Assembly: GCA_030523555.1 (NCBI GenBank)
Contig: JAUNIH010000009.1
Coordinates: forward strand, 1-40,878
Source: Erysipelotrichaceae bacterium
GTDB lineage: Bacteria; Bacillota_I; Bacilli_A; Erysipelotrichales; Erysipelotrichaceae
Length of the DNA stretch: 40,878 nucleotides
Direction: 5' to 3'
Below, one piece after another: positions 22,622 through 39,961 of the stretch. The position numbers were made by a program, and so were the translations under genes. Each line of letters begins with the position of its first letter. The stretch's first letter is position 1. The notes beneath the pieces are model-generated. The model saw only the letters and a program-made list of their open reading frames with translations, was not told the origin of the DNA and made no database searches.

Positions 22622-23170
22622 TTAATTCCCAGCGTATTCAAAGAAGACTACTGTAAGATTGACCGATACAGTTCCACTACCTGTCGTATATCTTACTGTA
22701 CCGTTATTGATGTTGAGTTCTAATACTCTTGCGTAATATGGACCGTATTCAAGCTGTCCGACAATATTTTCGGCTGTCACATAGGAATCACAGGTAAATG
22801 ACATATCAATAGCTCTTACTGCCAGATAATCATTGATACTTACCGGTTTAAACGATAACTGATAATTACTTGTATTGGCCGTAATGGTATTGAGATAGGT
22901 AATGACATTTGTCGCATTATCATAATCCGCAATAGGCTTCATATCATCTTTCTCTGCCTGAGATATCGCCTCTTCCATATTATGAAGTCTTTGATTCTTG
23001 ACTTCTTCTATCATGATAGCTGACTGCAGATTATCTATCTTATCCTGATTATCCCTGATGGTATTGTTTACAGGTATATAGATTAAAGATACATATAATA
23101 AGATCAGTGCCAGTATAGCCAGAACCAGAATAAGAATCTTTTCTCTTAAGGTAAATTCACGTTTCAGCAT
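22622..23170 (-). CDS. pilO: PilO-like type IV pilus assembly protein
   Basis: This 182-aa bitopic protein has a short cytoplasmic N-terminus (MLKREFTLREK), a membrane helix at about residues 12-33, a coiled coil at about 38-75 (NTIRDNQDKIDNLQSAIMIE), and a ferredoxin-like C-terminal domain. PilO pairs with PilN to form the inner-membrane alignment complex linking PilM to the platform. Sequence similarity is weak, so the call rests on length, topology and its place as the last gene after pilM and pilN. Its start is 1 nt behind the pilN stop. Confidence 0.72.
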   Translation of the reverse strand: MLKREFTLREKILILVLAILALILLYVSLIYIPVNNTIRDNQDKIDNLQSAIMIEEVKNQRLHNMEEAISQAEKDDMKPIADYDNATNVITYLNTITANTSNYQLSFKPVSINDYLAVRAIDMSFTCDSYVTAENIVGQLEYGPYYARVLELNINNGTVRYTTGSGTVSVNLTVVFFEYAGN

Positions 23171-23171
23171 A

Positions 23172-23726
23172 TCAGTTGATCTCCTTTAGCGTAATCGTCA
23201 TATTGATCATCGCTACAGCATTTTCATCATATAAGGAGTTGGCCGTTGAAACACTTACCCCGTCAACCATATTGGATTCATTAAGTCTTGTGATAATTCC
23301 TGATGCTCCCTGTAAATCAATACCGGATATCTGCACCACAAGAATCTTACCAGAGAACTGCACACTTACAATATTAGAATCATAGAGCTTCATATCTAAC
23401 ATATTCAGAACCTTAACGGCATCTACTGTCTTTAAGTCATCATATGTAGAATCGAAGTAGTAATGCTGATACTGTTTTAAGACTTCTTCATAGTTTTCAT
23501 TTTCTCTTTGTAGACTCACAAGCTGTGTCTGCAGTTTATTTACTTCAGATGTAGACTTGATCGCAAGTGCCAGTCTGTCAATTACCGCAAACTTCACAAA
23601 CAGACCAAAAAGAATACAGAAAGCTACAATACCAATAATCATTTCATTACTCAGTTTCTGTTTTTCAACCTGATAGAGATTTACATATTTCTTTGAAGGA
23701 TATTTATCAACTTTCTTCTTAGCCAT
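23172..23726 (-). CDS. pilN: PilN-like type IV pilus assembly protein
   Basis: This 184-aa protein has a cytoplasmic N-terminal segment (MAKKKVDKYPSKKYVNLYQV) where the PilM-binding peptide (INLLP-like) would be. A membrane helix spans about residues 30-52, a coiled coil about 60-90 (LQTQLVSLQRENENYEEVLK), and a small periplasm-side-type alpha/beta domain follows. It would dimerise with PilO and dock PilM at the membrane. The call is based on topology and gene order, because PilN proteins are poorly conserved. It lies 8 nt behind pilM. Confidence 0.72.
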   Translation of the reverse strand: MAKKKVDKYPSKKYVNLYQVEKQKLSNEMIIGIVAFCILFGLFVKFAVIDRLALAIKSTSEVNKLQTQLVSLQRENENYEEVLKQYQHYYFDSTYDDLKTVDAVKVLNMLDMKLYDSNIVSVQFSGKILVVQISGIDLQGASGIITRLNESNMVDGVSVSTANSLYDENAVAMINMTITLKEIN

Positions 23727-23734
23727 AACAACCC

Positions 23735-24682
23735 CTACATTAATGTTGCCCCATAGGCATACTGATGTGTATTTGTATCAAGAGAATCATATATCTTACC
23801 AAGATATTCAACCTTGATACCGATAGTATTTTCAAGTTCTTCAATAAGTGCCTTATTATTGGCTCCGCCACCACACACATAACACTTACTGATACCCTTG
23901 GCATTACCATAGTTATAGAAATTGATAGCTCTCATGACTTCTGTACAGATAGATGTATAGATATTCTTTACTACCTCTAAATCCATCACATTTTCATGAT
24001 TTGTTTCCTTATTGACTCTCGCGATATGTTCATCAATATTAAGATGATCCGCAATCTCCTGATCAATACTAAAACCACCCATATCAATAGTACGGGTTGT
24101 ATCATAACTGTTATCCTTAAACATATGAACTGTCGTCGTCTGATGACCGAAATCAACTACACACACAGGTTCACCATTACTTTTTTCTTCAATAAGATAT
24201 TTAAGAGAAAACTCATCAGGAACTACCTGTACAAGCTTAAGTCCTGCAACTCTGCACATTTCTCTTAAATCAATAATATCTGACTTCAAAGCAGCACATG
24301 CCATTAAAGTCATACTGTTATCATCATCAGATATTACCGAATAATCATAATTGTATTTCTCTTTACCCTGAACGATATAATCCTTGAATTCATAAGGAAG
24401 ATTAACACTCAGCTCATCAACAGTCATCTTCGGAACATTAATCGTTCTTACATAAGATAAAGCACTGGAAATAGAAATAGCACATCTTTTAGCCTTAATG
24501 TCATTTTCCTTCATTTTTTCCTTAAGAAAATCAGCCATAGCTTCCTTAGAAGTAATGACTCCATTAATAACCAGTTTATCCGGTGTCTCAACACTTACAG
24601 TCTTAACTATCTGATTACCATCACTTAAAACCAGTTTGACATTACCAGATCCAAAATCTATTCCTAATATTGGTTTAGACAT
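23735..24682 (-). CDS. pilM: PilM, actin-like pilus assembly ATPase
   Basis: This 315-aa protein has the actin/FtsA fold motifs: phosphate-1 loop PILGIDFGSGNVKLVL at the start, PVCVVDFGHQTTTVHMF (phosphate-2) near residue 172, and the adenosine motif KCYVCGGGANNKALIEEL near residue 268. It is a cytoplasmic protein that binds the N-terminus of PilN and helps couple the motors to the platform. It lies 15 nt behind the prepilin peptidase gene and 8 nt before pilN. Confidence 0.87.
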   Translation of the reverse strand: MSKPILGIDFGSGNVKLVLSDGNQIVKTVSVETPDKLVINGVITSKEAMADFLKEKMKENDIKAKRCAISISSALSYVRTINVPKMTVDELSVNLPYEFKDYIVQGKEKYNYDYSVISDDDNSMTLMACAALKSDIIDLREMCRVAGLKLVQVVPDEFSLKYLIEEKSNGEPVCVVDFGHQTTTVHMFKDNSYDTTRTIDMGGFSIDQEIADHLNIDEHIARVNKETNHENVMDLEVVKNIYTSICTEVMRAINFYNYGNAKGISKCYVCGGGANNKALIEELENTIGIKVEYLGKIYDSLDTNTHQYAYGATLM

Positions 24683-24697
24683 TACATTTCCTTTCCA

Positions 24698-25468
24698 CTA
24701 TATAAATAACGAGAGATACCACATAAGAATCTCTTCACCAGTTAGCATCGTAATAAAAGCCGCTATCGCAATTGAAGGTCCAAACGGAAAAGCCTCTTCA
24801 GCTTTATTACCTCTAGCATACGCAAAGATAATACCCACAATACACGCAATAAAAGCCATCAGGACTACTTTCATAATCCCAAAGTAGAGGCCCAGCATAA
24901 AGAACAGTTTAAGATCGCCTCCACCCATGGAATCTATACCCTTAATCTTATTAAACATAAAGACTAAAAGATATAAAACCCCAAATATTATAAGACCGCC
25001 AAGAATCCCATTCTTAACAGTCCCCTTATCATTAAAGTTAAACACAAAGAATCCGACAATACCGGCAATAATGAATCTGTCTGGAATCCATCCATCATCA
25101 ATATCCACCAGTGAACACACAAATAAAATGCTGAATAAAAAGATATATTCAACCGTTTTAATACTGAACCCGTATTTTACCGCAATAAACACATATCCTA
25201 TAAAACACAAAAATTCCGTAAGAGGATATCTAATTGAAACATCTGCCCCACAATATCGACATTTTCCCTTAAGGAATATCCATGAAAAAACAGGAACAAG
25301 GTCTAATGCCCCAAGTTCATGTCCGCAAGAAGTACAGTGGGAGCGACCCCTAAGGATCGACTCACCACTTATTATTCTTGAAGCATAGCAGTTTAAGAAA
25401 CTGCCCATTACCAATCCCAGTAATCCAACTACAAAATACAGATAGAGATTAAAAGGATCGAAATACAT
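24698..25468 (-). CDS. pilD: Prepilin peptidase / N-methyltransferase
   Basis: This 256-aa polytopic aspartic protease cleaves prepilins after the leader Gly and N-methylates residue 1. Both catalytic aspartate motifs are present: CSLVDIDDGWIPDRF and MGGGDLKLFFMLG. The N-terminal loop keeps two CxxC pairs (HCTSCGHELG and KCRYCGADV), as in bifunctional enzymes such as PilD, so the methylation domain is intact. It serves the five prepilin-like proteins of this operon. It lies 5 nt behind the major pilin gene. Confidence 0.93.
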   Translation of the reverse strand: MYFDPFNLYLYFVVGLLGLVMGSFLNCYASRIISGESILRGRSHCTSCGHELGALDLVPVFSWIFLKGKCRYCGADVSIRYPLTEFLCFIGYVFIAVKYGFSIKTVEYIFLFSILFVCSLVDIDDGWIPDRFIIAGIVGFFVFNFNDKGTVKNGILGGLIIFGVLYLLVFMFNKIKGIDSMGGGDLKLFFMLGLYFGIMKVVLMAFIACIVGIIFAYARGNKAEEAFPFGPSIAIAAFITMLTGEEILMWYLSLFI

Positions 25469-25473
25469 ACTGA

Positions 25474-25851
25474 TTATTTAGTAGTATCAATTGTTACGTC
25501 TGTATCAACAGGAATAACTGTATTTAAACCATGTGAAGTTACTGTAAGTTGGCCAGATGTTCCAGTGCCCAAAGTAACACAAGTTGAACCACCTTCACCA
25601 TGTGTGCAGTTTGCTATTAGTTTGCTTTGAGCAACAGTTACTTTACCCGTTGTAGAGTAAGTAGTACCAGTTAACATTTCATTACTAATTTCTTCTGCTA
25701 ATGCGGCTCTAACATTCGCTACATCGGCTGCATGCTGAGCTTTAGTAGTAGCTGCACCGAATACAGGGAACATGATAGCTACCAGTACAGCGATGATTGC
25801 GATGACAATCAGTAATTCAGCTAATGTGAAACCTTTCTTATTGTTTTTCAT
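25474..25851 (-). CDS. Major type IV pilin
   Basis: This 125-aa prepilin has a 7-residue basic leader ending in Gly, then FTLAELLIVIAIIAVLVAIM, with Glu at mature position 5. The globular domain is small, with a possible disulfide loop between the cysteines of NCTHGEGGSTCV (about residues 83-94). It is the best candidate for the major subunit, because it is the shortest full pilin, has canonical processing residues, and sits just before the peptidase gene. Its 67-nt upstream gap from pilC has a strong AGGTGG and a small hairpin (25892-25906), which could support higher or separate expression. Confidence 0.88.
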   Translation of the reverse strand: MKNNKKGFTLAELLIVIAIIAVLVAIMFPVFGAATTKAQHAADVANVRAALAEEISNEMLTGTTYSTTGKVTVAQSKLIANCTHGEGGSTCVTLGTGTSGQLTVTSHGLNTVIPVDTDVTIDTTK

Positions 25852-25918: not shown

Positions 25919-27130
25919 TCAGATGCCTCCGTATAATGTAAACATCGGCATATATAAAGCTATGACAATAAATCCTATAACTATACCCAGTACAACCGTT
26001 ATAGCCGGCTGTAACATATCCAGCATTCTTTTGGTTGCTACACTTACTTCGTTATCGAAGTGTAGACCTATCGTCTTAAGTGTTTCTTCTAAGGAACCAG
26101 TTTCTTCACCCATCGCTACCATTTCACATAATAGCTTTGGATAACATTCCGTCTCTTCAAGACACTCACCCAGGCTTCTACCTTCTTCTAGTTTGTTGAT
26201 GGTTGAACCGAGTTTAAGTCCCATGTAGTAGTTATCAAGGACCTTGGAGGTAATATTTACGGCTCTTATCATCGGTAAACCGGAATTAAGGAGAGTAGCC
26301 ATCGTGTTGGCAAACTGTGATGCGGATTTCATCTGTATGACTTCCTTTAATAAAGGAAACTGTGTCTGCATCTTTGACAGATTTATATGTCCCTGTTCTG
26401 TACTTGCATAATATCTTATGGCAATGGCTATAAGAACTATTGCCAGCAGGATAATAAACCAGTAGGAAGAGAAGAAATTCGCTATTGCCATCACAATTCT
26501 TGTGATTAGAGGCATCTCTATATCAAACTCTGCAAACAGGTCTGTAAATACCGGCATCGCTACACCCAGTACTATCGCTATAACAACAGCCGATAATACT
26601 AACAGGAATATCGGATAGGTCAGAGCTGATTTTACTTTTTCCTGGATGACACTCTGATTCTCAAAATATGTCTTTAATGAATCAAACGAAGTATCAAGAG
26701 TACCTGAAGATTCACCAGCCCTTACCGTTTCAATAAATGTAGCCGGTAAGTATTCAGAACCTTTGTTTTCAAAGGAATCCGCAAGAGAATAACCATTGGA
26801 GACATCTGTTGTTACTTCTGTAAGAAGTTTCTTTATCTTTTTGTCTTCTGTCTGTTCAGCCATGAGGCCTGAAGCTCTGGCTATAGGCATACCAGCCTTT
26901 AAGACAATCGCAAACTCTGAACACAGTATGGATAACTGTTTCAAAGGAATCTTCTTGGGACCTATCTCCGTCTCTAATATCGATGGTTTTACACTGGCTT
27001 CTTCAACGCTTAAAACGATGGGATATTTTTCTTTGATAATATCCACTGCTGCCAGTTCATCGTAGGCTTCAATAACCCCATTCACCTTATTACGATCTTT
27101 ACTTAAGGCACTATACTTATATGTTGGCAT
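25919..27130 (-). CDS. pilC: PilC/GspF platform protein
   Basis: This 403-aa protein starts PTYKYSALSKDRNKVNGVIE, the usual PilC/GspF N-terminal strand. Two GspF domains follow, each with cytoplasmic helices: LSILCSEFAIVLKAGMPIAR (about 66-85), and SASQFANTMATLLNSGLPMI around residue 268, plus three membrane helices (about 168-190, 215-240 and 370-395). It forms the inner-membrane base on which PilB and PilT act. The conserved EMVAMGEETGSLEETL near residue 340 is the family signature. Confidence 0.93.
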   Translation of the reverse strand: MPTYKYSALSKDRNKVNGVIEAYDELAAVDIIKEKYPIVLSVEEASVKPSILETEIGPKKIPLKQLSILCSEFAIVLKAGMPIARASGLMAEQTEDKKIKKLLTEVTTDVSNGYSLADSFENKGSEYLPATFIETVRAGESSGTLDTSFDSLKTYFENQSVIQEKVKSALTYPIFLLVLSAVVIAIVLGVAMPVFTDLFAEFDIEMPLITRIVMAIANFFSSYWFIILLAIVLIAIAIRYYASTEQGHINLSKMQTQFPLLKEVIQMKSASQFANTMATLLNSGLPMIRAVNITSKVLDNYYMGLKLGSTINKLEEGRSLGECLEETECYPKLLCEMVAMGEETGSLEETLKTIGLHFDNEVSVATKRMLDMLQPAITVVLGIVIGFIVIALYMPMFTLYGGI

Positions 27131-27161: not shown

Positions 27162-28196
27162 TTAATAAATATTTAAAGCATTTTTAACATAATCCGCATC
27201 ATTTGATGCCAAAACTGCTTCTTCTTTGGAAATTTTTCTTTCTTTTACAAGATTTATCAGACAGTTATCCATAGTTATATTGCCGATTCTTGCAGAAGTC
27301 GCAATCGCATTCTGAATAGAAGGGGTCTTTCCTTCTCTTATAAGATTGGCAATGGCACTGTTTACTTTCATTACTTCATAAGCCAGTACTCTTCCTTCAG
27401 AATCAATTCTTGGAAGTAACTGCTGAGCCAAGACATATTTTAATGTTGTACTAAGCTGCATTCTTATCTGGTCTTTTTTACCCTCAGATACAGCACTTAT
27501 AATTCTATCTATCGTATCTCCTGCACCATTTGTATGCAAGGTCGCAAAGACCAGGTGTCCGGTTTCAGCTGCAGTTAAAGCTGTTTCAATAGTATCCGCA
27601 TCTCTTAATTCACCAAGAAGAATAATATCCGGATCTTCTCTTAAAGAAGCTCTTAAACCATCAGAGAAACTCTCGGTATCCTGTCCTACTTCTCTTTGAT
27701 TGATAATACATTTATCAGGTTTATATAAATATTCCACTGGATCTTCCAGGGTAATAATATGTCCCTCATATGTATGATTTATCGCATCTATCAAAGATGC
27801 AAGAGTAGTAGACTTACCTGAACCTGTTTCACCGGTAACTAAGACTATACCTTTTCTTAATTTAATGATTTCTTCTACTATTTTAGGAAGACCAAGAACT
27901 GATATATCCGGTATCGTATCACTAAGTAATCTTAAGGCTATAGATATATGATTCTGCTGCTTAAAGACATTGATACGGCATCTTGTATTATCTATCGTCT
28001 TAGCCATATCATGTTCCTTAAGATTTGTAATATCTACACCCAGTTCTTTGGCAAGAGATTCCAGTTTATTATCATCCAGCACCGGTAAATCAAGCGCTTT
28101 TAAAGAACCATGTACACGTACACTTGGTTTTAATCCATATACCAGATGAAGATCACTCGCCTTTTTTTCTTTAGCTAATTTTACTAATTCTTCCAT
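27162..28196 (-). CDS. pilT: PilT retraction ATPase
   Basis: This 344-aa hexameric secretion ATPase has the PilT opening KASDLHLVYGLKPSVRVHG, Walker A VTGETGSGKSTTLASLI (about residue 120), Asp box VEYLY, NQREVGQDTESF, Walker B DIILLGELRDADTI, and the His box GHLVFATLHTNGAGDTIDR. The end keeps the AIANLIREGKTPSIQNAI helix typical of PilT. It disassembles pili to give retraction and twitching. It lies 2 nt behind pilB, with no separate Shine-Dalgarno visible, so translation is probably coupled. Confidence 0.92.
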   Translation of the reverse strand: MEELVKLAKEKKASDLHLVYGLKPSVRVHGSLKALDLPVLDDNKLESLAKELGVDITNLKEHDMAKTIDNTRCRINVFKQQNHISIALRLLSDTIPDISVLGLPKIVEEIIKLRKGIVLVTGETGSGKSTTLASLIDAINHTYEGHIITLEDPVEYLYKPDKCIINQREVGQDTESFSDGLRASLREDPDIILLGELRDADTIETALTAAETGHLVFATLHTNGAGDTIDRIISAVSEGKKDQIRMQLSTTLKYVLAQQLLPRIDSEGRVLAYEVMKVNSAIANLIREGKTPSIQNAIATSARIGNITMDNCLINLVKERKISKEEAVLASNDADYVKNALNIY

Positions 28197-28198
28197 AA

Positions 28199-29869
28199 TT
28201 ATAAGTTACTTGATTCTATTACTTTGATTGCCTCTTCAGGTGTTGTTTCACCCTCTATGACAAGTCTTATCGCATTTTCTTCGATAGTCACAAAATTATT
28301 CGGTTTTAATGAATCTTTCTTGTTACCGGCATTGATCTGTCTTCTTAAATCTCCATCAATATTCAGTATTTCAAAGACACCCATTCTTCCTCTATAACCT
28401 GTGTTATAGCACATTGGACATCCCTTACCCTTATAGAAGACATAATCAGATACCTTATTTAACTTTAAAGCTTCCTTTTCTTCAGCAGTAGCTTCATAGG
28501 ATTCCTTACAGTTAGGACATATTCTTCTTACAAGTCTCTGGGCTATGATGCCCCTCATCGCACCACCAATCAGGTAAGGTTCAACTCCGATATCCAATAA
28601 CCTGTCTATCGCAGCCAAAGCGTTAGATGTATGTACGGTACTTAAGACAAGATGACCGGTAATAGCGGCACGCATCGCAATCTCTGCCGTTTCACCATCT
28701 CTAATTTCACCTACAGATATAATATCCGGATCCTGTCTTAAGATAGCTCTTAAACCGTTAGAGAAAGTCATACCCTGTTTCTCATTGATCTGAACCTGAT
28801 TGACGCCTCTCATCTGATATTCAACAGGATCTTCCAGAGTCGTTATATTAACATCATCCTTATTCAGTTTCGACAGCATCGTTGACATCGTAGAAGATTT
28901 ACCTGAACCTGTAGGACCGACAATCAGAATAACTCCTGATTTGGCCTTTAACAGATCATTAAACTTATCAAGATCCTTACCATGTAAACCTAAAGCTTCA
29001 GCTTCAAGTATCTGTGCTGTCTTATCAAGTAATCTGATAACGACCTTTTCACCATTAATGGTAGGTAATGTCGATATACGTAAATCTACATCTTTAGATT
29101 TGATGGTAATATTGGCACGTCCATCCTGAGGTACTTTCTTTTCAGCAATATCCATATTGCCCATAACCTTCATTCTGGAAATGACAGATGACTGCAGATT
29201 CTTAGGAACCGACAGCATACTTCTCATAACACCATCTATTCTCATTCTTACAACCAGTTCATCTTCCGCAGGTTCAAGATGTATATCTGAAGCTCTTTCT
29301 ACAACCGCTCTTTCAATAATTGAGTTAACCAGTCTTATTGTAGGTGCACTGGCATTATCATCATCGACAGCTGTACTGGTATTAACCGTTTCAGCCTTCT
29401 TTGATTCTTCGAGCATTTCATCAATTGCCCTGTTGGCACCTTCATTGCCATATAATCTGGCAATAGTACGATCTATCGCATCTTTAGTAGATATTACAGG
29501 TACCACTCTCATCTTGGTGGTATTTCTTACTTCTTCTATAGCCACAAAGTTCAAAGGATCGGCAGTCGCCAGATATAAGGTATCTCTATCAACTCTTACC
29601 GGTACAACACCATGTTTCTTGGCTATATTCTTGGATATCAAAGATGATACATTACTAGGAATAGTAAGGGTAGTAATATCGACAAACTCTAAACCCAGCT
29701 GCATCTCCAAGGCTTCAATCAGCTGTTTTTCCGTAATGAACTTATGCTCAATCAAAATCTCTCCAAGTCTCTTCTTGGTTCCCTTCTGCAAAGCCAATGC
29801 TTCATTCAACTGATCTTCGCTGATAAGATTTACACCTAATAATAAATCTCCAAGTCTCTTATATGCCAT
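28199..29869 (-). CDS. pilB: PilB/GspE extension ATPase
   Basis: This 556-aa protein has two N-terminal MshEN/T2SSE-N-type repeats (RLGDLLLGVNLISEDQLNEA and RLGEILIEHKFITEKQLIEA), folds that in relatives bind cyclic di-GMP. The motor core follows, with ERASDIHLEP, Walker A VGPTGSGKSST (about residue 320), Walker B IISVGEIRDGETAE and the His box LVLSTVHTSNA. The C-terminal zinc site has CPNC and CPMC pairs. It powers pilus polymerisation. AAAGGGG precedes the ATG. Possible c-di-GMP binding links it to the HD-GYP protein encoded in this window, but that link is inference. Confidence 0.93.
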   Translation of the reverse strand: MAYKRLGDLLLGVNLISEDQLNEALALQKGTKKRLGEILIEHKFITEKQLIEALEMQLGLEFVDITTLTIPSNVSSLISKNIAKKHGVVPVRVDRDTLYLATADPLNFVAIEEVRNTTKMRVVPVISTKDAIDRTIARLYGNEGANRAIDEMLEESKKAETVNTSTAVDDDNASAPTIRLVNSIIERAVVERASDIHLEPAEDELVVRMRIDGVMRSMLSVPKNLQSSVISRMKVMGNMDIAEKKVPQDGRANITIKSKDVDLRISTLPTINGEKVVIRLLDKTAQILEAEALGLHGKDLDKFNDLLKAKSGVILIVGPTGSGKSSTMSTMLSKLNKDDVNITTLEDPVEYQMRGVNQVQINEKQGMTFSNGLRAILRQDPDIISVGEIRDGETAEIAMRAAITGHLVLSTVHTSNALAAIDRLLDIGVEPYLIGGAMRGIIAQRLVRRICPNCKESYEATAEEKEALKLNKVSDYVFYKGKGCPMCYNTGYRGRMGVFEILNIDGDLRRQINAGNKKDSLKPNNFVTIEENAIRLVIEGETTPEEAIKVIESSNL

Positions 29870-29941: not shown

Positions 29942-30520
29942 TCAATTATTATCTGGATCTTTAATCTGTTTCAGATTAATCGCTTTTACTTCAAACTGAC
30001 CTGATACGATATCAGCTTCTTCATACGCTACAAGCAGATCCACAACAAATTTTACTTTACCGGCATCATCTTTAACATATTTAACACTTGCCTTAGCCTT
30101 TAGATCGTGCGGATACATACTTCCACTTAAGAGTCTGTTGTATTCACCTTTATTTCCTAATGCCAGATAACCGGCTTTTGTGGTTTCTGCCCCACTTTCA
30201 TCAAGAGTTACCAATGAAGTATCCTGACTCTTTATGGCGTAGGTCACACTGAAAAACGATTCAACCTCATTATTGTTATTAAGTGTACATTCTGTCGTAT
30301 ATCTGAGTTCATTTGATATGACTTCTTCGAGAACTCCATAAAGTGTCTGTGCCTCACTTGTCCTTATAGACTTTATAAACTGTCTCTGTGCCAGCATTAC
30401 ACCTGCCACAAGAATTGATGAAACAATCAGCATTATCGCAATTGCCACCAGCAGTTCCGTAAGGGATGTACCCTTTTTTGATTTTATTTTATTTTTTAAA
30501 TCAATAATCATCTTATTCAT
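29942..30520 (-). CDS. Minor pilin, GspJ-like
   Basis: This 192-aa prepilin has a 16-residue basic leader ending SKKG, then TSLTELLVAIAIMLIVSSIL with Glu at mature position 5. The globular part is larger than that of the major pilin and rich in beta strands. Its size and position after the GspK-like and small minor pilin genes resemble GspJ in the GspHIJK tip complex; sequence alone does not prove this. AGGTGATG lies upstream of the ATG. The gene precedes pilB by 72 nt. Confidence 0.75.
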   Translation of the reverse strand: MNKMIIDLKNKIKSKKGTSLTELLVAIAIMLIVSSILVAGVMLAQRQFIKSIRTSEAQTLYGVLEEVISNELRYTTECTLNNNNEVESFFSVTYAIKSQDTSLVTLDESGAETTKAGYLALGNKGEYNRLLSGSMYPHDLKAKASVKYVKDDAGKVKFVVDLLVAYEEADIVSGQFEVKAINLKQIKDPDNN

Positions 30521-30534: not shown

Positions 30535-30894
30535 TTATCTTTCATAATAGTAAAAACCATCAGCAGTCTCATAACCTTTAACATTGCCGAAATTCTTTTG
30601 CTGGGTTCGCCCATTAGAATCGGTATAGGTTAAGGTTACAGCAAAAGTGCTTCCATCAGTTCCGGTTATTTCAGTGCCACTGTATTCTGCCTCAGTAACA
30701 ATATCAAAAGAAGACCTGTTTATCTTTGCGGCTGAAACAATAGCTCCACTTAGTATTGCGATGGCAATACAGATAACCAGCAGTGATACCAGGGTTTCCG
30801 TAAGGGTCTCACCACGCTTATCTCTGATCTTTGACAGATTCAGAGATTGTTTATCAGTATGTACACATGAATTATCAAATAATTTCTTTATCAT
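30535..30894 (-). CDS. Minor pilin, GspI-like
   Basis: This 119-aa prepilin has an unusually long N-terminal extension (28 residues) before the cleavage motif DKRG, then ETLTETLVSLLVICIAIAIL with Glu at mature positions 1 and 5. The mature globular domain is only about 60 residues and ends FYYYER. It overlaps the GspK-like gene by 4 nt (ATGA). By order and size it fits the GspI place in a tip complex. The long leader may hold the start wrongly, but no better internal start is visible. Confidence 0.72.
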   Translation of the reverse strand: MIKKLFDNSCVHTDKQSLNLSKIRDKRGETLTETLVSLLVICIAIAILSGAIVSAAKINRSSFDIVTEAEYSGTEITGTDGSTFAVTLTYTDSNGRTQQKNFGNVKGYETADGFYYYER

Positions 30895-31622
30895 TGTGCA
30901 GCTCCTGTTCCATAAAAATTACCGACAGTCCACTCATATGTATCGGTTGTGGTAGTTACAGTTACAGGTATAATAACCACCCACATACCATCTTCGGTTT
31001 TTACAGTGGTATCTTTTGTGATAGTAGACGAAAGATACATACGTTCATTCTCTTTCCCATTTTCATCCTGCATAGTCATCGTAAAGGTAACCGGATACTC
31101 TTCATATGAATCTGTCGATTTATCACTATCTTTTGTAACGGCATATTTAACATAGACTGTAACTAAATTATCGTTATTTGTGGAAATATCGAAAGATCCT
31201 TCGCATGGTGTATCCCATGAAATCTTCTTTTCTATCTCCTCTATTATTTTTTTAAATTCATCCGCAAATATATCCTCCGCAGGACTTATGGTGTAGTCCG
31301 GATCAGTACTTGGAATTTCCCTTCCTGATTTCGTTACTGTTTTAATTGTTGTTACTGTACAGTCCATTCCATCCAGTTCATCTTTAATCAGAAGTCCGGC
31401 AGACTCAATTGTCAGTGAACGCTGGGTCTCCTGTCTTATTTCAAAAGTAGTTTTAAAGGATGACATTGAAACTGCCAGGATAGTCAAAGATACCATCATT
31501 GCCACAAACATTAGCAGCAGTGCATACAACATACTGACACCGCTTTTTTCTGTTAGTTTATATGTCAGCGACATTTTTCTCTTCTTTTCAAAGGTACGTA
31601 TTTTTTTATTATGAATCATCAT
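30891..31622 (-). CDS. Minor pilin-like protein without Glu5, GspK/PilX-like
   Basis: This 243-aa protein has a basic 31-residue N-terminus ending EKSG, then VSMLYALLLMFVAMMVSLTI. The hydrophobic helix is pilin-like, but mature residue 5 is Tyr, not Glu. Loss of Glu5 is characteristic of GspK, the subunit at the very tip of type II pseudopili, and similar PilX-like initiators. The C-terminal domain is beta-rich and ends VGNFYGTGAAQ. Its Shine-Dalgarno (GGAGGT) lies inside the last codons of the giant prepilin gene, with a 4-nt ATGA overlap, so the two proteins are made together. Confidence 0.72.
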   Translation of the reverse strand: MMIHNKKIRTFEKKRKMSLTYKLTEKSGVSMLYALLLMFVAMMVSLTILAVSMSSFKTTFEIRQETQRSLTIESAGLLIKDELDGMDCTVTTIKTVTKSGREIPSTDPDYTISPAEDIFADEFKKIIEEIEKKISWDTPCEGSFDISTNNDNLVTVYVKYAVTKDSDKSTDSYEEYPVTFTMTMQDENGKENERMYLSSTITKDTTVKTEDGMWVVIIPVTVTTTTDTYEWTVGNFYGTGAAQ

Positions 31623-33295
31623 TCCGTACCTCCTGCAGCAGCAGTTACTTTCACAAAAGCGGTTCCTGTGATTGGAACATCATTGTAATCATAGGAAGCT
31701 TTAACTGTAATTGTTGCGCCGTTTCCAAGACCCGTAATTGTATAAATATTAGAATCTGCAGTTCCCTGTATGCCAACATCACCACTTAATGACCATGTAA
31801 GATTTGTGTTGTTGGAGTAAACAGTACCGTTGGATGATACTGCACTTAAAATCAAAGTTCTTTCTTCATCCTGCGCTAAATTATCTATGCTATCAGGACT
31901 GGCTGAAACAGTTAATTGTGCTGTTATATTGAGTTCAAATGATGCACTGTATATTATGCCTGAAGTATCCTTTGCACTGAATTTAAGCACACCATTACCT
32001 GGATTTATAGCCTTGATACTTACTTCGCATGTACCATCATTCTTAACATTTACAGATGTTACCTCAGCAAAATCATCTTCATTAAACCAGAACATATCAG
32101 GTGTTATATCTCCAAAACTCATACCATTCAGATTAAGTATAAATGTCTTATATGCATATCCATCATCAGCCATATCATCCAATATATCCATAGTTCCTGA
32201 TGCACTGTTCCAGTATGGTCCTGCAAGGACCTTTATGCCGTTTAGACTAAGTTTATAAGAGGCACTTGCTTTTGTTACAGTAAGTGAAAGGGATACGTTT
32301 TCAATATCTTCATGTGAACTAGATCCTGTAGAATCATATGTCAGAGTTAAATCTCTGTAGATCATTGGCTGATCATCATCTGAAGGTTTTTTAAGCTTAA
32401 GTTCTTTATTCTGACCAACTGTAACAGTTATCAGACTGGTTATATCATTATTATCGGCTGTAACTTCATAAGTCTTATAGTTTGCAGATATATCGACTGT
32501 ATTGTTTCCACCAGCTGTAGCGTAGATAAAATATGAACCAGAACCATCATAATCCGGTTCCTTCTTAATAGATGTCTTACTGAAATCTGTCACGTTTGTA
32601 CCGGGGATAGTTGAAGTATCTGTTTCTTTGACATCTGCCTGATTAAATACTGCTTTATCAGATAAACCAACAAGACCCCACTTAATATATCTCTCAATTG
32701 ATACAAGAATTTTTCCAGTAATTGGGATGCCGTTATAATCATAGGTTGCGTTCACGGTTACTGATGCATCGTATCCATATCCAGTTACTATATATTTGTT
32801 CTTTATGTCGGTTTGTGTAATCTCAACATCTCCATCTTCCGGATCTGTATCTTTTGAAGCGCTTAGTGACCATGTGAGTTTTTCATCAGTTGAGTAGTCA
32901 AGACCGTCAGCTGATACCGCACTCAAAGTCAGAGTTTCTTCATCATCTTCCGCAAAATTCGGAATCAGAAGCGGATCTGAAGAAACAATAAGGCTGTCCT
33001 TTATTTCAAGGGTAAATGTTGCGCCATATGTAATACCTGAAGTATCTGTTGCACTGAATGTGATATCGACCGTTCCCGGCTTTAAGGCCTTAACCTTTAC
33101 CTCTATCGTATTACCGTTATCTGTAAAGGAATCAATTGCAACATAGTCTTCAAGATTCATTAAGAACATATCAGGTTCTATAACTCCAAAACTCTTACCA
33201 TTGAGATTAAGAGTATAAGTACGATAGGCATATCCATCATTACTGAGATTATCAAGAATATCGATACTATCTGTACCATATTTCCAGAATGGTCC
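31619..33295 (-). repeat. Duplicated 200-aa unit in the giant prepilin
   Basis: Two coding segments, 33295-32690 and 32221-31619, encode the same order of motifs. The first begins GPFWKYGTDSIDILDNLSND with FGVIEPDMFLMN; the second begins GPYWNSASGTMDILDDMADD with FGDITPDMFWFN. Both continue with a KFSAKDTSGI-like strand and YDYN[GD][IV]PITG near the end. The stretch between them encodes a further Ig-like region. Confidence 0.75.
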
Positions 33296-36200
33296 GTTGA
33301 CTGGCCAACTTCCGTAATGGACATTTACTATATCACCAAGACCTAAATCCTCCTGTGTAAGCACGGTTGGGAACGGATAGTTCTTGCCATCAAGTGAAGT
33401 ATCGTTTCCAGGGAAGCTGTACTTACCATCAACGCTTGCACCTGAAGCGTCAACGATCGTCACCCAGCCCCACTGACCCGAGTCAGCACCGGCATTTAAG
33501 GCGGTCTGTATGTTCTTGCCCGAGTATGTTCCTGATGTAAGATCTTCATCTCCTGAAAGCTGATTATATGTAACGTTAATAACATTGCTGTTGTTATCAA
33601 GAGTTCTCTGCTTATATGAAATATCAGCCAATGTATAGTAATAACAGTTTGTTATGGTAAAGTTATTGCCTTTATTTTCGTTGTTGGCGTTGGAAACCAC
33701 CGGACATAAGGTTTTCACACTGCTTCCCGTACAACCCGAAAGGTCTGTATAGGTATAACAGTTTCTTACTGTTGGTTTGTCGGTCAGGGTTCCGAAAAGG
33801 CTCGTATCTCCGTAAAGATTTCCGTTTGATCTGACAAACCATCCACCTACCAGACCACCCACATGGATATTGGTGTTATTGGCAAGAGTAGATGAAACTG
33901 ATCCACCTGAATAACAGTTTTCAAGTGTTGCACCACGGAAGTTACCGACAAGACCACCAACACGGATGTTTTTGGTGCTGTCATTGTAGTTTGGCTGAAT
34001 CTGGATATCTGTTACAGCGGAGCAGTTGCTTACTCCTACATTAGATAAGCCTGCAAAACCACCAATATTGGTTCCACCATAACCAAAGTCATTACGGTTA
34101 TCACAAATTATATATCCCGAAACAGTACAGTTTTTAAATACAGCACTTTCGCCGGTGCTGTCTCCACCAAGCGCTGCCACGCCTGCCATACCTCCCAGAC
34201 AATACCAGTTTCTATCTCCAGTATTATTGCCATATTTCGAATCGGACGCCGTCTGTATCTTATTACCTTTATCGGAATAAAGAATAATATTCTGTATATC
34301 AGCACTTATGGTAATTCCAAACAGTCCTACACCCTGAGATTTGCTGCAGATTTCAACATTCTTGATCTGATAACTGTTGCCATTATAGGTACCATTAAAA
34401 TATACGGCACTGACATTGGCGTTATTACCTGTGTTCAGCTCACAGAACGAACCTATTGGTGTAAATAAATTAGCAGCTGCGGTTGTACCGTTATTAACTT
34501 CCATATCCGCATCAATATCATGCGTCTGATTGAAATAATATTTAGCCTCACTTCTGTATGAAGTTCCATACGCATAACCAAGGTAAGTAAACGCTGACCA
34601 CTTGTCAGGTGCTGCATTCCCATTACTTGCATAATCCGCGAAATTAAGCCATTCATTAGTTGTCTTAGTAGTGCTGTTCCAGTTTAAATACTGAAGCTGT
34701 TCATCGCTTCTGATTTCATACTGATTATTTTCGCTTCCTACAGTTGTACCGGAATAGTTTGTGGTGATTCCGGCATAGTCAGTGATATTCATATTAGCTG
34801 GCATTCCTGTTGTACTTGATGTTAAAGCCATGGCGTTGGCAAAGAATGGCGATACCGTATAGACATATTCATCAGCACCGTTATAGGTAAGTTTGACGCT
34901 GCCGTTTATATCACTGCCGCTAAGATAGATATAGTCTCCAGAATCTGCAACCCTGGTTGTATATGGATAGAAGGTATAACCGGATACCTGTGTTTCAAGA
35001 GATTCTTTTGCGGAAGTATTTACTGCTGTTCCTACAGAAATATCTGTCCACGCAACAGAAACATTAAACTTTTCACCTGATTCGATTGATTCGATATAAT
35101 ATCCATAACCATATTCTGTAATTATGCCGCCATCATCATGAGATTCACACAGTGTTGTCTGGTATTCACTCGCGCCCTGATTTGTACCGATATAGGTAAA
35201 CTTATAGCCATCATTCTGGCCACCTTCTTCATGTTCCCAGTAGAAAATTCCCAGATTACCAAGTTCAGGGTTTGTTGGCCATTCACCATAATGAACATAT
35301 TTTCCATTGATGTCCTTAACAACGGCCTGGAAAGGATAATCCTTTATATTTGTATTGTTATGATTATAGGAGTTCTCTGCAGGAGATGTGTTGGCTTCTT
35401 TAAGTTGCGCATAGTTCTTTGCTACAGCACCATTTGCAGATGTATCAAGATCATAGGCATATAATCCATCAACAAACTGATAGTTTCCCTCCTTCAGATA
35501 ATAACTTGATGAAATGGAACCTGTACTGAATGCAAAACCATCAGTAGAAGCACCGGTTCCTGAAGAAGTAATCGCCATTGCACAGTATGTATTTTTAATC
35601 ATACCGATATTTGTACCTGCAAAGCCGGCTATATGAGCCGCTCCACCATCTGCTGCGCATTCAATATGTCCTATAGCGTAAGAAGCATTTACAGCACCGG
35701 TATTGTAGCCGACCGCACCACCGATATAGGCTGTAGATCTGTAAAGCGATACATTTATACGTGGAAAATCAGCACTGCTGCCTATAATATTTCCGGAATT
35801 ATAGCCCGTGATACCACCAATATATAAGTTACTGTTGGCATAGCCTCTGATTGTCGCATCAGATCCGGTAAGAGAATATCCGGCAACAGTACAGTTACTT
35901 ATATTTCCAGAATTATATCCGGCAAGTACACCAAAATAAACAGTTGTATTGGCTCCGGCAGCTGCACTTCTTTTTACTGTATAGTTGTCTGAGCCGTTTA
36001 CTGTATAGTCGGTTGCCAGGACAATGTTACTCAGATGTCCACTGTCTGCGACATAACCAAACATGCCGACATAGTTGCCGGTTTCACTTGCGAAACTTAT
36101 ATTAGAAATACTGTAGCAACCGCCATTGTATGTATTCCTGAAAGAAACATTTTCATTAGCGCCTATTGGCTGCTGAGAAGATACAGATGAGAAGTCTGTA

Positions 36201-39178
36201 TACGTCGACCATCTGTAAGCTGAATAGTCAATATCTCTTTCCTGATCGTATCTGGCGTTAGTAACAATACCTCTGTAGCCATTATCATAATATAAACTCA
36301 GATTGTATAACTGACGCGGCGTACGGATGCTTATATCTTTAACTGAAGATACTGCAGTCTTTGGTGCATCTGCACTAACTGCTTCTACAACAGTCCTTGC
36401 GAAATGAGGGTTATAGTCATAATACGCAGGTTCTGTGTCATCTGTGCTCTGTACAATTTTTATTCTTGTATAATATCCGCTTAATGCCGAAGTCGGATTA
36501 ACCTGTTCTTTTGGAAGCGGATAGATTTTATAGCTCACCAACTTGCCGTTTTCCTGTATGCTGGCTTTATAACATTCACTGCTGCTGGTATATATATCCT
36601 GAGATGTTCCATTTTCAAAACTGATCGTTACTTTGTCAGGTATTGAATCATTTGCACCAAAGATGATGCCATAGCCATCGCCAAGTACTGTGCCATCAGT
36701 TCGTAAAGATACAGAGACACCCGCACCATCAAAGCCATATTCCTGACCAGTTTCTGTGCCGGTATATCTCTCGTAATAGACAAGCGCACCAGACTGGAAT
36801 GAAGTCTCCCAGTCACCATAATGAGTAAGTGTGCTGATTCTAGGATAGACATATGTTGTAAGAGACTGACCCATCAGTCTATATGGCTGTGTACCAGTAG
36901 TATCAATTTCAAAACTGTCGCCTTTTAATGCGGCCAGCAGTTCTCTGGTTGTCATCTGACCTATGGCGCTAGTACCACTCACATTATTTTCATCTGAAGA
37001 TCCGGCATTAAAATAATATGTATTTGCCGTAGTACCAATTGATACAGCTGTGCTGTAATAGGTTCCTTTATCCTTATCAGTTGATACCTTACCGCTTTCC
37101 TTATCAATACCACCATCTTCTGCCTGTGCATAACAGGACATGATTGTATAACTGTTTGTGATAACTGTGGCATTCCCATTCACAAAACCGGCACCAGTTG
37201 AATTGCTGTCAGCTAAACCAATATATCCGGCTGTGTAAGATGAACGAATACGCACGTCCCCTGTTGAAGAACCGATAAGGCCACCGGCTTGAGCACCATA
37301 AAGATAAGAATCAGCATATGATCCGTTGATACTTGCGGTTCCGCTGTTTCTACCGATTAAACCACCAGAGATACCGCTTGCCTTACCAACATAAGAATCT
37401 GTGACAACCTTTCCTATTACTGTAGAAGCTGAACTGCTGCTGATAGTCAGATTCCCTTCGTTAAGGCCAACCAGACCGCCAGCGGTATTGCCACCAATCC
37501 AGGTAATAGCTTCAACATTGTTTTCTTCGCTGATGCTGCCGGGAATATCACCGTTATCACGGCTCAGATAAACCTGACATCCGGAAACTGTTGCAGTTCC
37601 TGTTCCATAGATTCTTCCTACCAGCGCACCGGTATTCGAACCATTTATATGAGCTCCGGCAAGAGATGTGTTTTTAATTGTAATACTGTTTCTAACCGTA
37701 CCAAAAAGACCAGCGTTTCCACCTGTTTTTATGGCAAGTCCTGTTATGATATCACCCGAACCATCATACTCTGTCAGATAGTTATTGGTAATTGACTTGA
37801 AATCAGGCATTGACACGACAGCAACATGACCGCTTTCTGTTGGTTCATAAATATTTGTTGTGCCATTAAAATATGCGTCGGCATACTCTGAATACCAGGC
37901 GCTGTCTTCATCAAACAGAATATCGCCAATCTGAACAGCCTTTGTTATGCTGTTTGTTACATGTGAACTGTTATCAAGATTCTGAAGATGTCTTCCCAGT
38001 GTAATATAGGCGGTATTTTCGGAAACTGTCTTCCCAGTGTCAGGACCATAGGCAAAAAGACTGTTATTTGTATCTTTTGCAAAACCTGTCTGATCAACAG
38101 TCCTATCGTTTGGACATGTAACATAGACAGTCAGCGTAAAATCCTTACCACTCACAAGTTCTCTAGTGAAGTCAAGACCTTCCTTAGTGAAGCGATGGCC
38201 ACTTCCGCCACCAAAGGTATTATAGAATCTTGTCGAAGCAGATGAAAGATCATCAAGAATGATATTAAAGGTTATCTTCTGACCGACCTTGGTTATGGTA
38301 ATGATATTGGAAAGTTCCGGTACCCATAAACCCTCGGCATCAGTAAAATGTCCCTTTCCTTCATCATATATGAATTTATATGAATTGCCTTCCGGTTCCG
38401 GATTGGCAATGACAAACGTGAACACAAGATCATCGGTAACAGTAACCGGCTTCTTGACTATAGCCTGAGCAGTAAGAGTTTCACCGTTATTTATGGTTAA
38501 TGTTGGTGAAAGCGTCTTGATATAGGAAGAAGAGGCAATATTGGCACCACCATAATAACCAACACGGGCATTATCCTTGATTCTGTTTTCCTTTACACGC
38601 AGCTTCAGGTTGTATAAATCATTATCGTTTACATATTCTGTAGAAAAATCCGCAAGATCTTCACTGTAATATACAGCATAGACAGAAGCTGCCGAAAGCA
38701 CTGGTTCATTTCCATCTTCGCTATAGGCATATGGCATAAATTCTATTACCCAGTGGCCACTGTAAAGACTCTCGTCCAATATGTCTGATGTAACAATCTC
38801 GGTTGCTGCTGAATTATCACCAGAAAGAATATAGTAAACGCCATTCTTATTTATCTTTGTTCCTGTATCAGGGTCATAGTCAGCAGGATAGTCAAAATTA
38901 CACACCTTAATAGAACCATCTGAATAATTATTCGGATCATATTTATACTGGAGACCTGCTGTATACAGTTCACTGAGTCTAGACTGAACAGCCATATAGA
39001 TAGTTTCAGCCTTGGCATCAAGTTCTCTTTGTCTGAGGTTTCTTCTTATAGATATGATCGAAGGTACTGCTATTGTGCATAAAATCAGGATTACAGCCAC
39101 AACAACAAGCAGTTCCCCAAGGGAAAAGCCTTTTTTGTTATTTATATTATCTGAGTTTAACTTCTTAATCTGCTTCAT
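31619..39178 (-). CDS. Giant modular prepilin/adhesin with GLUG repeats and Ig-like domains
   Basis: This protein of about 2,519 aa begins with a 16-residue leader ending KKG, then FSLGELLVVVAVILILCTIA with Glu5: a true class III prepilin signal. The start at ATG 39178 is chosen because AGGTGAGG precedes it; an ATG at 39226 has no ribosome-binding site and would give an oversized leader. After a pilin-like region there are three modules. Each holds several GLUG motifs (GGLVGLNEGNLTISSS, IGGITGYNSGNIIGSS, VGGLVGNFRGATLENC) and each ends with a HYGxW motif at about residues 786, 1296 and 1954. The C-terminus has Ig-like domains, including a 200-residue unit present twice (about 1962-2163 and 2320-2519). 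There is no LPXTG or C-terminal membrane helix. It is therefore anchored by incorporation into the pilus, probably at the tip, as surface adhesin. It is the first gene of the operon. Confidence 0.85.
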   Translation of the reverse strand: MKQIKKLNSDNINNKKGFSLGELLVVVAVILILCTIAVPSIISIRRNLRQRELDAKAETIYMAVQSRLSELYTAGLQYKYDPNNYSDGSIKVCNFDYPADYDPDTGTKINKNGVYYILSGDNSAATEIVTSDILDESLYSGHWVIEFMPYAYSEDGNEPVLSAASVYAVYYSEDLADFSTEYVNDNDLYNLKLRVKENRIKDNARVGYYGGANIASSSYIKTLSPTLTINNGETLTAQAIVKKPVTVTDDLVFTFVIANPEPEGNSYKFIYDEGKGHFTDAEGLWVPELSNIITITKVGQKITFNIILDDLSSASTRFYNTFGGGSGHRFTKEGLDFTRELVSGKDFTLTVYVTCPNDRTVDQTGFAKDTNNSLFAYGPDTGKTVSENTAYITLGRHLQNLDNSSHVTNSITKAVQIGDILFDEDSAWYSEYADAYFNGTTNIYEPTESGHVAVVSMPDFKSITNNYLTEYDGSGDIITGLAIKTGGNAGLFGTVRNSITIKNTSLAGAHINGSNTGALVGRIYGTGTATVSGCQVYLSRDNGDIPGSISEENNVEAITWIGGNTAGGLVGLNEGNLTISSSSASTVIGKVVTDSYVGKASGISGGLIGRNSGTASINGSYADSYLYGAQAGGLIGSSTGDVRIRSSYTAGYIGLADSNSTGAGFVNGNATVITNSYTIMSCYAQAEDGGIDKESGKVSTDKDKGTYYSTAVSIGTTANTYYFNAGSSDENNVSGTSAIGQMTTRELLAALKGDSFEIDTTGTQPYRLMGQSLTTYVYPRISTLTHYGDWETSFQSGALVYYERYTGTETGQEYGFDGAGVSVSLRTDGTVLGDGYGIIFGANDSIPDKVTISFENGTSQDIYTSSSECYKASIQENGKLVSYKIYPLPKEQVNPTSALSGYYTRIKIVQSTDDTEPAYYDYNPHFARTVVEAVSADAPKTAVSSVKDISIRTPRQLYNLSLYYDNGYRGIVTNARYDQERDIDYSAYRWSTYTDFSSVSSQQPIGANENVSFRNTYNGGCYSISNISFASETGNYVGMFGYVADSGHLSNIVLATDYTVNGSDNYTVKRSAAAGANTTVYFGVLAGYNSGNISNCTVAGYSLTGSDATIRGYANSNLYIGGITGYNSGNIIGSSADFPRINVSLYRSTAYIGGAVGYNTGAVNASYAIGHIECAADGGAAHIAGFAGTNIGMIKNTYCAMAITSSGTGASTDGFAFSTGSISSSYYLKEGNYQFVDGLYAYDLDTSANGAVAKNYAQLKEANTSPAENSYNHNNTNIKDYPFQAVVKDINGKYVHYGEWPTNPELGNLGIFYWEHEEGGQNDGYKFTYIGTNQGASEYQTTLCESHDDGGIITEYGYGYYIESIESGEKFNVSVAWTDISVGTAVNTSAKESLETQVSGYTFYPYTTRVADSGDYIYLSGSDINGSVKLTYNGADEYVYTVSPFFANAMALTSSTTGMPANMNITDYAGITTNYSGTTVGSENNQYEIRSDEQLQYLNWNSTTKTTNEWLNFADYASNGNAAPDKWSAFTYLGYAYGTSYRSEAKYYFNQTHDIDADMEVNNGTTAAANLFTPIGSFCELNTGNNANVSAVYFNGTYNGNSYQIKNVEICSKSQGVGLFGITISADIQNIILYSDKGNKIQTASDSKYGNNTGDRNWYCLGGMAGVAALGGDSTGESAVFKNCTVSGYIICDNRNDFGYGGTNIGGFAGLSNVGVSNCSAVTDIQIQPNYNDSTKNIRVGGLVGNFRGATLENCYSGGSVSSTLANNTNIHVGGLVGGWFVRSNGNLYGDTSLFGTLTDKPTVRNCYTYTDLSGCTGSSVKTLCPVVSNANNENKGNNFTITNCYYYTLADISYKQRTLDNNSNVINVTYNQLSGDEDLTSGTYSGKNIQTALNAGADSGQWGWVTIVDASGASVDGKYSFPGNDTSLDGKNYPFPTVLTQEDLGLGDIVNVHYGSWPVNGPFWKYGTDSIDILDNLSNDGYAYRTYTLNLNGKSFGVIEPDMFLMNLEDYVAIDSFTDNGNTIEVKVKALKPGTVDITFSATDTSGITYGATFTLEIKDSLIVSSDPLLIPNFAEDDEETLTLSAVSADGLDYSTDEKLTWSLSASKDTDPEDGDVEITQTDIKNKYIVTGYGYDASVTVNATYDYNGIPITGKILVSIERYIKWGLVGLSDKAVFNQADVKETDTSTIPGTNVTDFSKTSIKKEPDYDGSGSYFIYATAGGNNTVDISANYKTYEVTADNNDITSLITVTVGQNKELKLKKPSDDDQPMIYRDLTLTYDSTGSSSHEDIENVSLSLTVTKASASYKLSLNGIKVLAGPYWNSASGTMDILDDMADDGYAYKTFILNLNGMSFGDITPDMFWFNEDDFAEVTSVNVKNDGTCEVSIKAINPGNGVLKFSAKDTSGIIYSASFELNITAQLTVSASPDSIDNLAQDEERTLILSAVSSNGTVYSNNTNLTWSLSGDVGIQGTADSNIYTITGLGNGATITVKASYDYNDVPITGTAFVKVTAAAGGTE

Positions 39179-39311
39179 TATCCTCACCTGATTATTATTT
39201 ATATACCGATGTTCTTCCCGTATCATTCATCATATACACCAAAAAGATAACCGTGTATAGTTATTTATTTAAGTATATCACTTTTAAAGATTTCAATATA
39301 TTTTTTATATA

Positions 39312-39337
39312 TATAAGAAAAGACTCTGCGAGTCTTT
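39312..39337 (-). terminator. Weak terminator after the AbiEi-like gene
   Basis: On the minus strand AAAGACTC pairs with GAGTCTTT (39330-39337 with 39319-39326, 3-nt loop), followed by a T-rich but interrupted tail. It lies 7 nt beyond the stop at 39344 and upstream of the pilus operon. Confidence 0.6.
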
Positions 39338-39343
39338 GCTTTC

Positions 39344-39961
39344 TTATACCAGTTCACCCATCAATCCTCCGTTATAGATATTTCTATAGATGCGATCCGG
39401 ATATAATGCGATATACTTTCTTACTTCATTAAAATCAGTGTCTGTCTTTCTGACATATTCTTTTAATTTCTTATTCAGTAAATTACCATCAATTTCACTG
39501 TATCTGTCTATCACTGACATCAGATCCAGAAACTGTAAAGCACTGATATTTTCATCAGTAATTTCTGTAACAGGTTTATAGACAATAATCTTTCTTCCAT
39601 CAATTTCCATTTTTCTCTGTTTTGTCGTAGCCTCATTGGAACATATTTCCATATATGAAGGATTCTGTGAAGTAAAACCATACATATTCAAAAGAGATAT
39701 TCCGGTAATATATCCACTCGTTTTCCCTTTTACTTTCATGAATTTCTTACTGATATATTTATCAACCGAAACTTTTCCTTTAGTACCCAGAATACTTTCA
39801 TATGAACGGTAATAGACTCCTCCCATCAGTCTTTCAATCTTTCCTTCATCCTTCAGCATCTTCATTTCCTGGCGTATATAATCTTTAGATCTTCCAGGAA
39901 GTTCATCCAGAAATATCGGTTCATCCTTTTCAAAATTACTCAGTATATATTCATACAGCAT
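39344..39961 (-). CDS. AbiEi/DUF6088-type antitoxin, orphan
   Basis: This 205-aa protein has an N-terminal winged-helix region (FLDELPGRSKDYIRQEMKML then GKIERLMGGVYYRS). A C-terminal domain follows, with SGYITGISLLNMYGFTSQNP and MEIDGRKIIVYKPV, as in AbiEi-type antitoxins of type IV TA systems. Those proteins repress their own promoter and counter an AbiEii nucleotidyltransferase toxin. No AbiEii gene follows: the next gene downstream on the strand is the giant prepilin. It may be orphaned or a plain regulator. GAGG lies 10-13 nt before the ATG, and a perfect inverted repeat at 39978-40000 lies just upstream. Confidence 0.7.
   Translation of the reverse strand: MLYEYILSNFEKDEPIFLDELPGRSKDYIRQEMKMLKDEGKIERLMGGVYYRSYESILGTKGKVSVDKYISKKFMKVKGKTSGYITGISLLNMYGFTSQNPSYMEICSNEATTKQRKMEIDGRKIIVYKPVTEITDENISALQFLDLMSVIDRYSEIDGNLLNKKLKEYVRKTDTDFNEVRKYIALYPDRIYRNIYNGGLMGELV

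Follow-up and report, generated by a model that had tools for sequence, protein, structure and literature searches.

What does a type IV pilus gain from a subunit of more than 2,500 residues? The question is raised by the window analysed here, a stretch of 40,878 nucleotides from an Erysipelotrichaceae bacterium, in which a long minus-strand reading frame at the head of a pilus operon starts with a prepilin signal and runs on into repeated Ig-like and GLUG beta-helix modules. A preliminary description, made from the sequence alone, took the product for a giant prepilin acting as a tip adhesin. Our reading is that the protein (P0001; 271 kDa, pI 4.4) is probably a modular, H-like minor pilin whose repeated modules form an array for ligand binding, displayed at the pilus tip or close to it, from where PilT could pull it back.

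The reading frame has no internal stop on translation, and no long open-reading frame was found on the plus strand across the gene. The source genome is a draft of 95 contigs, which might favour an assembly or annotation artefact. However, the same gene order, which the preliminary description had proposed to look for in related genomes, was found in a congeneric genome (G008; by sequence match JAUNCS010000037, Erysipelotrichaceae bacterium S22M_St_41, L071), where the nearest long orthologue in the genus, of 2,512 aa, is followed by the K, I and J minor-pilin genes and then by PilD, PilM, PilN and PilO. With orthologue and giant-K-I-J order both recurring there, misassembly is very unlikely, and as the family also holds 42 complete members of more than 1,000 aa, and relatives of 2,433 aa (L074) and 2,188 aa (L075) occur in genomes of named strains, we regard the chance of an artefact as close to negligible. 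The giant gene probably opens a new transcription unit, since a terminator-like hairpin, recognised by consensus match only, lies between it and the unrelated gene upstream. The gene immediately upstream (39344-39961) encodes a 205-aa protein without a Pfam match, which by eye resembles AbiEi-type antitoxins, and a HigB/HigA-like toxin-antitoxin pair (Gp49/DUF891 and HTH_3) is located at 40104-40740, also upstream of the pilus operon.

At the N-terminus, the canonical prepilin signal described earlier is present, with a leader/mature junction of MKQIKKLNSDNINNKKG/FSLGELLVVVAVILIL and glutamate at position 5 of the mature chain (E22 of the precursor), a column that is invariant in 32 aligned relatives. 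The N_methyl profile PF07963 scored 25.1 bits in the genome scan (cut-off 21.2); querying with the entire protein, or with residues 1-400, gave 18-21 bits, just below the cut-off. The whole-protein Pfam scan returned the pilin signal alone; GLUG (PF07581) emerged from scanning pieces, of which one of five was above cut-off and another near it, and the beta-helices are confirmed by structure and profile searches alike. GLUG and Ig-like modules are thus grafted onto a prepilin as had been proposed, but the graft comprises about 2,300 residues and not about 2,480, because the pilin head extends to about residue 212. With Gly-1 and Glu5 in its signal, a hydrophobic helix, and a module that is not specific to type IV pili grafted onto the pilin head, the protein is, as judged from its sequence, a modular type IV pilin.

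The graft consists of three tandem modules, each an Ig-like domain and a GLUG beta-helix terminating in HYGxW, where x is D, E or S (residues 786, 1296 and 1954), and of a tail (Table 1); the Ig-like part of module 2 (residues 791-1300) is assumed by analogy. AlphaFold2 model 1 (residues 1-794, 32 relatives in the alignment) had a mean pLDDT of 83.6, and model 2 (residues 1330-2519) one of 66.9, with Ig-like and beta-helix folds to about residue 1955 followed by an Ig-like tail, which beyond about residue 2190 is of low confidence and is read simply as Ig-like. Neither LPXTG nor a membrane anchor was found at the C-terminus. The core (residue 1 to about 2110) can be aligned across relatives whilst the tail is divergent, which is the pattern of adhesins that combine a conserved scaffold with a variable end.

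Table 1 Features of the pilus locus, with positions in the window; a slash marks the leader/mature junction of a prepilin.
Feature	Position	Strand	Evidence
Terminator-like hairpin separating the giant gene from the 205-aa gene upstream	39319..39337	.	Consensus match only
Ribosome-binding site AGGTGAGG ahead of ATG 39178	39182..39189	-	Sequence
Giant modular minor prepilin, 2,519 aa (P0001), H-like subunit	31619..39178	-	ORF and translation; congeneric 2,512-aa orthologue
Class III leader, residues 1-17, ending KKG; mature chain from FSLGE (Glu5)	39128..39178	-	PF07963 match
Pilin module, residues 18-212: helix 20-73, beta head ending VGYYGG	38543..39127	-	AF2 pLDDT mostly 75-90; conserved columns
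Ig-like domain 1, residues 222-375	38054..38515	-	AF2; VIA-align Ig matches, Z about 8
GLUG beta-helix 1, residues 390-790, ending HYGDW at 786	36809..38011	-	IgA1 protease N-terminal fold; 6xja_P Z 24.2; profile E 4.8e-13
Module 2, residues 791-1300: GLUG beta-helix ending HYGEW at 1296	35279..36808	-	PF07581 E 2e-5, above cut-off; HYGxW
Module 3, residues 1301-1962: Ig-like and GLUG beta-helix ending HYGSW at 1954	33293..35278	-	AF2; VIA Z 28.3 to 3n6z over 1353-1955
Tail unit A, residues 1962-2161, Ig-like domains	32696..33295	-	49% identical to unit B; Ig/S-layer-like matches
Tail unit B, residues 2320-2511, duplicate of unit A	31646..32221	-	
K-like minor pilin, 243 aa, KSG/VSMLYALL, no Glu5	30891..31622	-	4-bp overlap of its start with the giant's stop
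I-like minor pilin, 119 aa, KRG/ETLTETL, Glu5 present	30535..30894	-	4-bp overlap with K
J-like minor pilin, 192 aa, KKG/TSLTELL, Glu5 present	29942..30520	-	
PilB extension ATPase with MshEN domain	28199..29869	-	PF00437 423 bits; PF05157
PilT retraction ATPase	27162..28196	-	TIGR01420 405 bits, above cut-off
PilC platform protein	25919..27130	-	PF00482
Probable major pilin (PilA), 125 aa, KKG/FTLAELL	25474..25851	-	PF07963 36.6 bits
PilD prepilin peptidase	24698..25468	-	PF06750, PF01478
PilM	23735..24682	-	PF11104
PilN-like	23172..23726	-	Position and BLAST to relatives' PilN-position genes; no Pfam match
PilO-like	22622..23170	-	PF04612 27.7 bits, just under cut-off

The surroundings of the gene bear on where such a pilin would sit. 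The giant is the first gene of a 12-gene type IV pilus operon, H(giant)-K-I-J-PilB-PilT-PilC-PilA-PilD-PilM-PilN-PilO, with intergenic gaps all of 72 bp or less, and the T4a-type monoderm set is complete (PilB, PilT, PilC, PilD, PilM, PilN, PilO and a major pilin), although PilB scores under the NCBIfam equivalog cut-offs. The earlier account of a complete operon, led by the giant and including PilT and three further minor pilins, is borne out. The giant and K genes, and the K and I genes, overlap by 4 bp each, which is consistent with translational coupling. Four minor prepilins are encoded together, one of them (K) without Glu5, as in an H-I-J-K gene set. In type IV filaments, the apical, tip-capping K subunit of such a set lacks Glu5 (PMC10191384, PMC10628169), and as the 243-aa protein shares this lack whilst the 119-aa and 192-aa proteins possess Glu5, we interpret the giant as H and its three partners as K, I and J; these labels derive from the N-terminal motifs, the order of the genes and BLAST comparison with neighbouring loci, not from solved folds. 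K-position proteins without Glu5 also occur in G008 and three further genomes (G014, G028 and G031), according to their listed N-termini.

Bulky modular pilins are expected at the tip as they are unfit for the shaft (PMC8179133, PMC6561018, PMC10628169). Since its partner (30891-31622) lacks Glu5 like an apical K, and its graft is much too bulky to fit the shaft, the giant is best inferred to be an adhesin at or near the tip, although its pilin head could be placed elsewhere in the filament. Prepilins enter the membrane before assembly, and the pilin N-terminus might thus serve as secretion signal and membrane anchor only, the giant remaining in the cytoplasmic membrane and projecting through the wall, outside the filament. 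Both the lack of another anchor such as LPXTG and a length of 2,500 aa, very large for a filament subunit, would fit this, yet the invariant Glu5 is an assembly feature, the gene overlaps that of the Glu5-less K, and the association with I and J is conserved, so we consider a mere membrane protein unlikely.

If the giant is indeed a pilin at or near the tip, PilD would remove its 17-residue leader and the mature chain would join the K, I and J minor pilins, with the Glu5-less K at the apex, to prime the filament, which PilB and PilC would then lengthen below the tip with the 125-aa major pilin (cf. PMC10191384). The three Ig-like and GLUG beta-helix modules, followed by the Ig-like spacers, would then be shown at or just below the tip, where they may bind a ligand on mucosa, fibre or neighbouring cells, and retraction by PilT would pull the array back (cf. 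PMC10191384).

The closest tested analogue is PilB of S. sanguinis, whose grafted vWA module binds host proteins (PMC8179133). Together with the lectin-bearing PilC of the same species (PMC8179133, PMC9934059, PMC10628169), it resembles the giant in its class III signal, small pilin module and C-terminal grafted module, in belonging to a monoderm type IV pilus, in having a partner minor pilin without Glu5 and in its proposed tip display. It differs in that PilB is a 50 kDa protein with one module, of another type, compared with the 271 kDa, three Ig and beta-helix modules and Ig tail of the giant, and in that the S. sanguinis set is A-B-C instead of H-K-I-J. PilC/PilY1 of diderm T4aP is alike in its presumed role, as a large effector presented by a minor-pilin set, but it has a beta-propeller (PF05567) and does not belong to the pilins. 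No match to PF05567 was found in P0001 or its pieces, and a search of its own genome was empty, with control genomes likewise silent, so that this search does not show PilY1 to be absent. The preliminary description had the giant replacing a PilY1-type tip protein, an idea to which the short pilins with a separate giant beside them, described below, offer a partial parallel. A survey in 2021 catalogued modular pilins, more than 1,200 of them with 264 architectures, the most extreme multidomain case having 860 residues, and named the IPR012902-IPR011493 architecture a predicted M26 peptidase (PMC8179133). The modular pilins described in the publications consulted are far smaller than the giant, whose family comprises hundreds of loci in Clostridia, Erysipelotrichia and Coriobacteriia that are common in gut and rumen. 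IPR011493 is, we assume, the GLUG entry, in which case the surveyed architecture would presumably be an earlier trace of this family.

The predicted fold of modules 1 and 3 matches that of the N-terminal domains of M26 IgA1 proteases. A module 1 profile matched the S. pneumoniae IgA1 protease over NTD2 (E 4.8e-13), model residues 233-786 aligned with 6xja_P at Z 24.2 (VIA structural alignment), and module 3 aligned with M26 proteases and the Bacteroides structure 3n6z at Z 24.5-28.3; among 18 long relatives, one had a PF05342 match. With the metallo-IgA1 proteases of S. pneumoniae and G. haemolysans (PMC9637739), the giant shares NTD1 and the beta-helix NTD2 (16-20% identity over 274-285 aligned residues, Z 23-25), but it has neither the middle nor the catalytic domain, and its module is repeated and fused to a pilin. 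As HExxH is absent from P0001, and neither the whole protein nor its pieces matched the Peptidase_M26 catalytic domain, the giant is not a protease. The best match of module 3, BACOVA_03286 of Bacteroides ovatus (PDB 3n6z, Z 28.3), likewise combines Ig with a GLUG beta-helix but is a stand-alone 363-residue construct without a pilin, whose function as putative IgA1 protease is an annotation. In M26 proteases, NTD2 is a beta-helix that gates substrate entry and its strands touch the IgA1 Fab (PMC9637739). Protease-free IgA1-protease recognition units on a pilus might accordingly let gut bacteria capture the host's secretory IgA, or mucus or cells coated with IgA, and haul it in, the antibody becoming an anchor; this is a very unlikely reading, derived from fold likeness, which alone does not show IgA binding.

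Weaker structural matches of model 1, at Z 10-13, were to beta-helical polysaccharide lyases and glycosidases. Most relatives come from rumen and gut, and a type IV pilin role in cellulose adhesion is reported for Ruminococcus (PMC3672088), so the beta-helices might bind or cut polysaccharides (plant fibre, mucin) and the pilus be a fibre- or glycan-holding device. Given that the M26 match is far stronger (Z 24-28), that the lyase matches reflect a common fold and that no catalytic signature was identified, this seems to us quite unlikely, although glycan binding without cleavage would be compatible with a tip adhesin too. No lectin, vWA or CBM ligand-binding domain was recognised in the giant or in 18 long relatives.

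A further precedent for a tip pilin is ComZ of Thermus thermophilus, a solved minor pilin with a beta-solenoid that is thought to sit at the tip (PMC6561018), and by this likeness the giant might be a DNA receptor. ComZ, however, binds DNA and has a single solenoid copy inserted in the pilin fold, whereas the modules of the giant come after the pilin head and all its segments are strongly acidic (pI 4.1-4.9). The genome moreover has a separate comG-like operon on another contig (L039:3029-6213), and a DNA receptor is highly improbable. ComZ was absent among the listed structure matches, an absence that does not exclude likeness. The pilus operon itself does not contain the comGA-comGG competence set, and the comG-like operon elsewhere suggests that it does not encode the competence pilus. 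The organism appears to possess two type IV filament systems, and other contigs of the genome also encode three orphan prepilins (281-310 aa) whose N-terminus resembles that of a major pilin (FTLAELLIVIAIIA; L036:6968-7900, L037:4579-5457 and L038:4091-4936), possibly alternative pilins.

Relatives of the first 790 residues of the giant are encoded at no fewer than 303 loci (one genome per species scanned). The best 80 of these belong to Clostridia, Erysipelotrichia and Coriobacteriia, largely from gut and rumen according to record titles, and 64 of the 80 have type IV pilus or minor-pilin genes within the fetched stretch. The 63 complete relatives range from 700 to 3,749 aa (median 1,727), and incomplete members reach at least 4,503 aa. 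Cultured bacteria with the gene include Oscillospiraceae MH27-2, Oscillibacter valericigenes An907 and Oribacterium sp. C9. The giant had been proposed as one of the larger pilin-grafted adhesins; it is large, but not exceptional, and its size is ordinary for the family, as 11 of the 63 complete relatives equal or exceed its 2,519 aa. Within the source genus, the gene is present in 6 of 36 genomes, all 6 being among the 9 that have this PilB (p 4e-5, kinship ignored). Our literature search, which mostly did not extend to subscription journals, found no paper on pilins of this size, on this family or on GLUG combined with a pilin, and the giant-pilin family of gut Clostridia and their neighbours, whose members probably present an adhesin at the tip of the pilus, is seemingly undescribed. 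One relative, L035 (G020:C61:6739-9516), is split over two frames (430 and 541 aa) in a genome that is 57% complete, and represents either a decaying gene or a sequencing error.

The family divides by length. Complete short members (700-847 aa) are essentially a pilin, an Ig domain and the first beta-helix, ending HYGDW, and in 17 of 21 (two identical copies included) a same-strand, non-pilin open-reading frame of more than 2,000 aa adjoins the minor-pilin set, compared with none of the 34 long members (>1,000 aa, with enough flank). The Fisher test gave p 9e-11 for this contrast, but on the tree it amounts to 6 changes, and the well-supported branches yield 4 independent pairs, of which about 2 are informative; being mainly a contrast between two clades, it is suggestive, not proven and not independent of kinship. 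Four congeneric genomes carry the short version (736-781 aa) with an adjacent separate non-pilin protein of 2,361+ to 6,028 aa. The tree places the giant and its G008 orthologue in the long clade and the congeneric G014, G028 and G035 in the short clade, which suggests locus exchange between lineages.

The separate giants (L041-L045) follow directly after the short H pilin and have Sec-like hydrophobic starts; LPXTG is absent wherever their C-terminal ends are visible. Those scanned contain SpaA, DUF7601 and InlB-type repeat domains, the G014 protein having an InlB-B repeat, DUF7601 and SpaA. The proteins of G014 (5,099 aa; G014:C6:131917-147216), G028 (6,028 aa; G028:C21:40210-58296) and G035 (5,348 aa; G035:C21:71479-87525) are possible pilus-associated effectors. 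The first 1,000 residues of the G014 protein had no match in the long-pilin genomes G000 and G008, and the separate giants of the short class showed no BLAST similarity to the giant pilin or to long tails. Long pilins as a fusion of the same protein were therefore rejected at BLAST sensitivity, and any role common to separate giants and long tails is an analogy only.

In this family, the minor-pilin operon encodes chains from 700 to over 4,500 residues long, whose modules resemble the part of IgA1 proteases that engages the antibody. If the giants do sit at the tip, gut commensals would possess type IV pili that act as grapples of long reach, their heads very large and variable. Genomes with a long pilin, set against those with a short pilin and a separate giant, form a natural experiment on the ways in which an effector can be carried by a pilus, and one that is accessible in cultured relatives. 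A record from human faeces filed as 'Bacteriophage sp.' (L149; MT836433.1) also encodes a giant H pilin, at least 2,400 codons long, ahead of K-, I- and J-like genes; the record appears to be a bacterial contig misfiled as phage, and places the family in the human gut.
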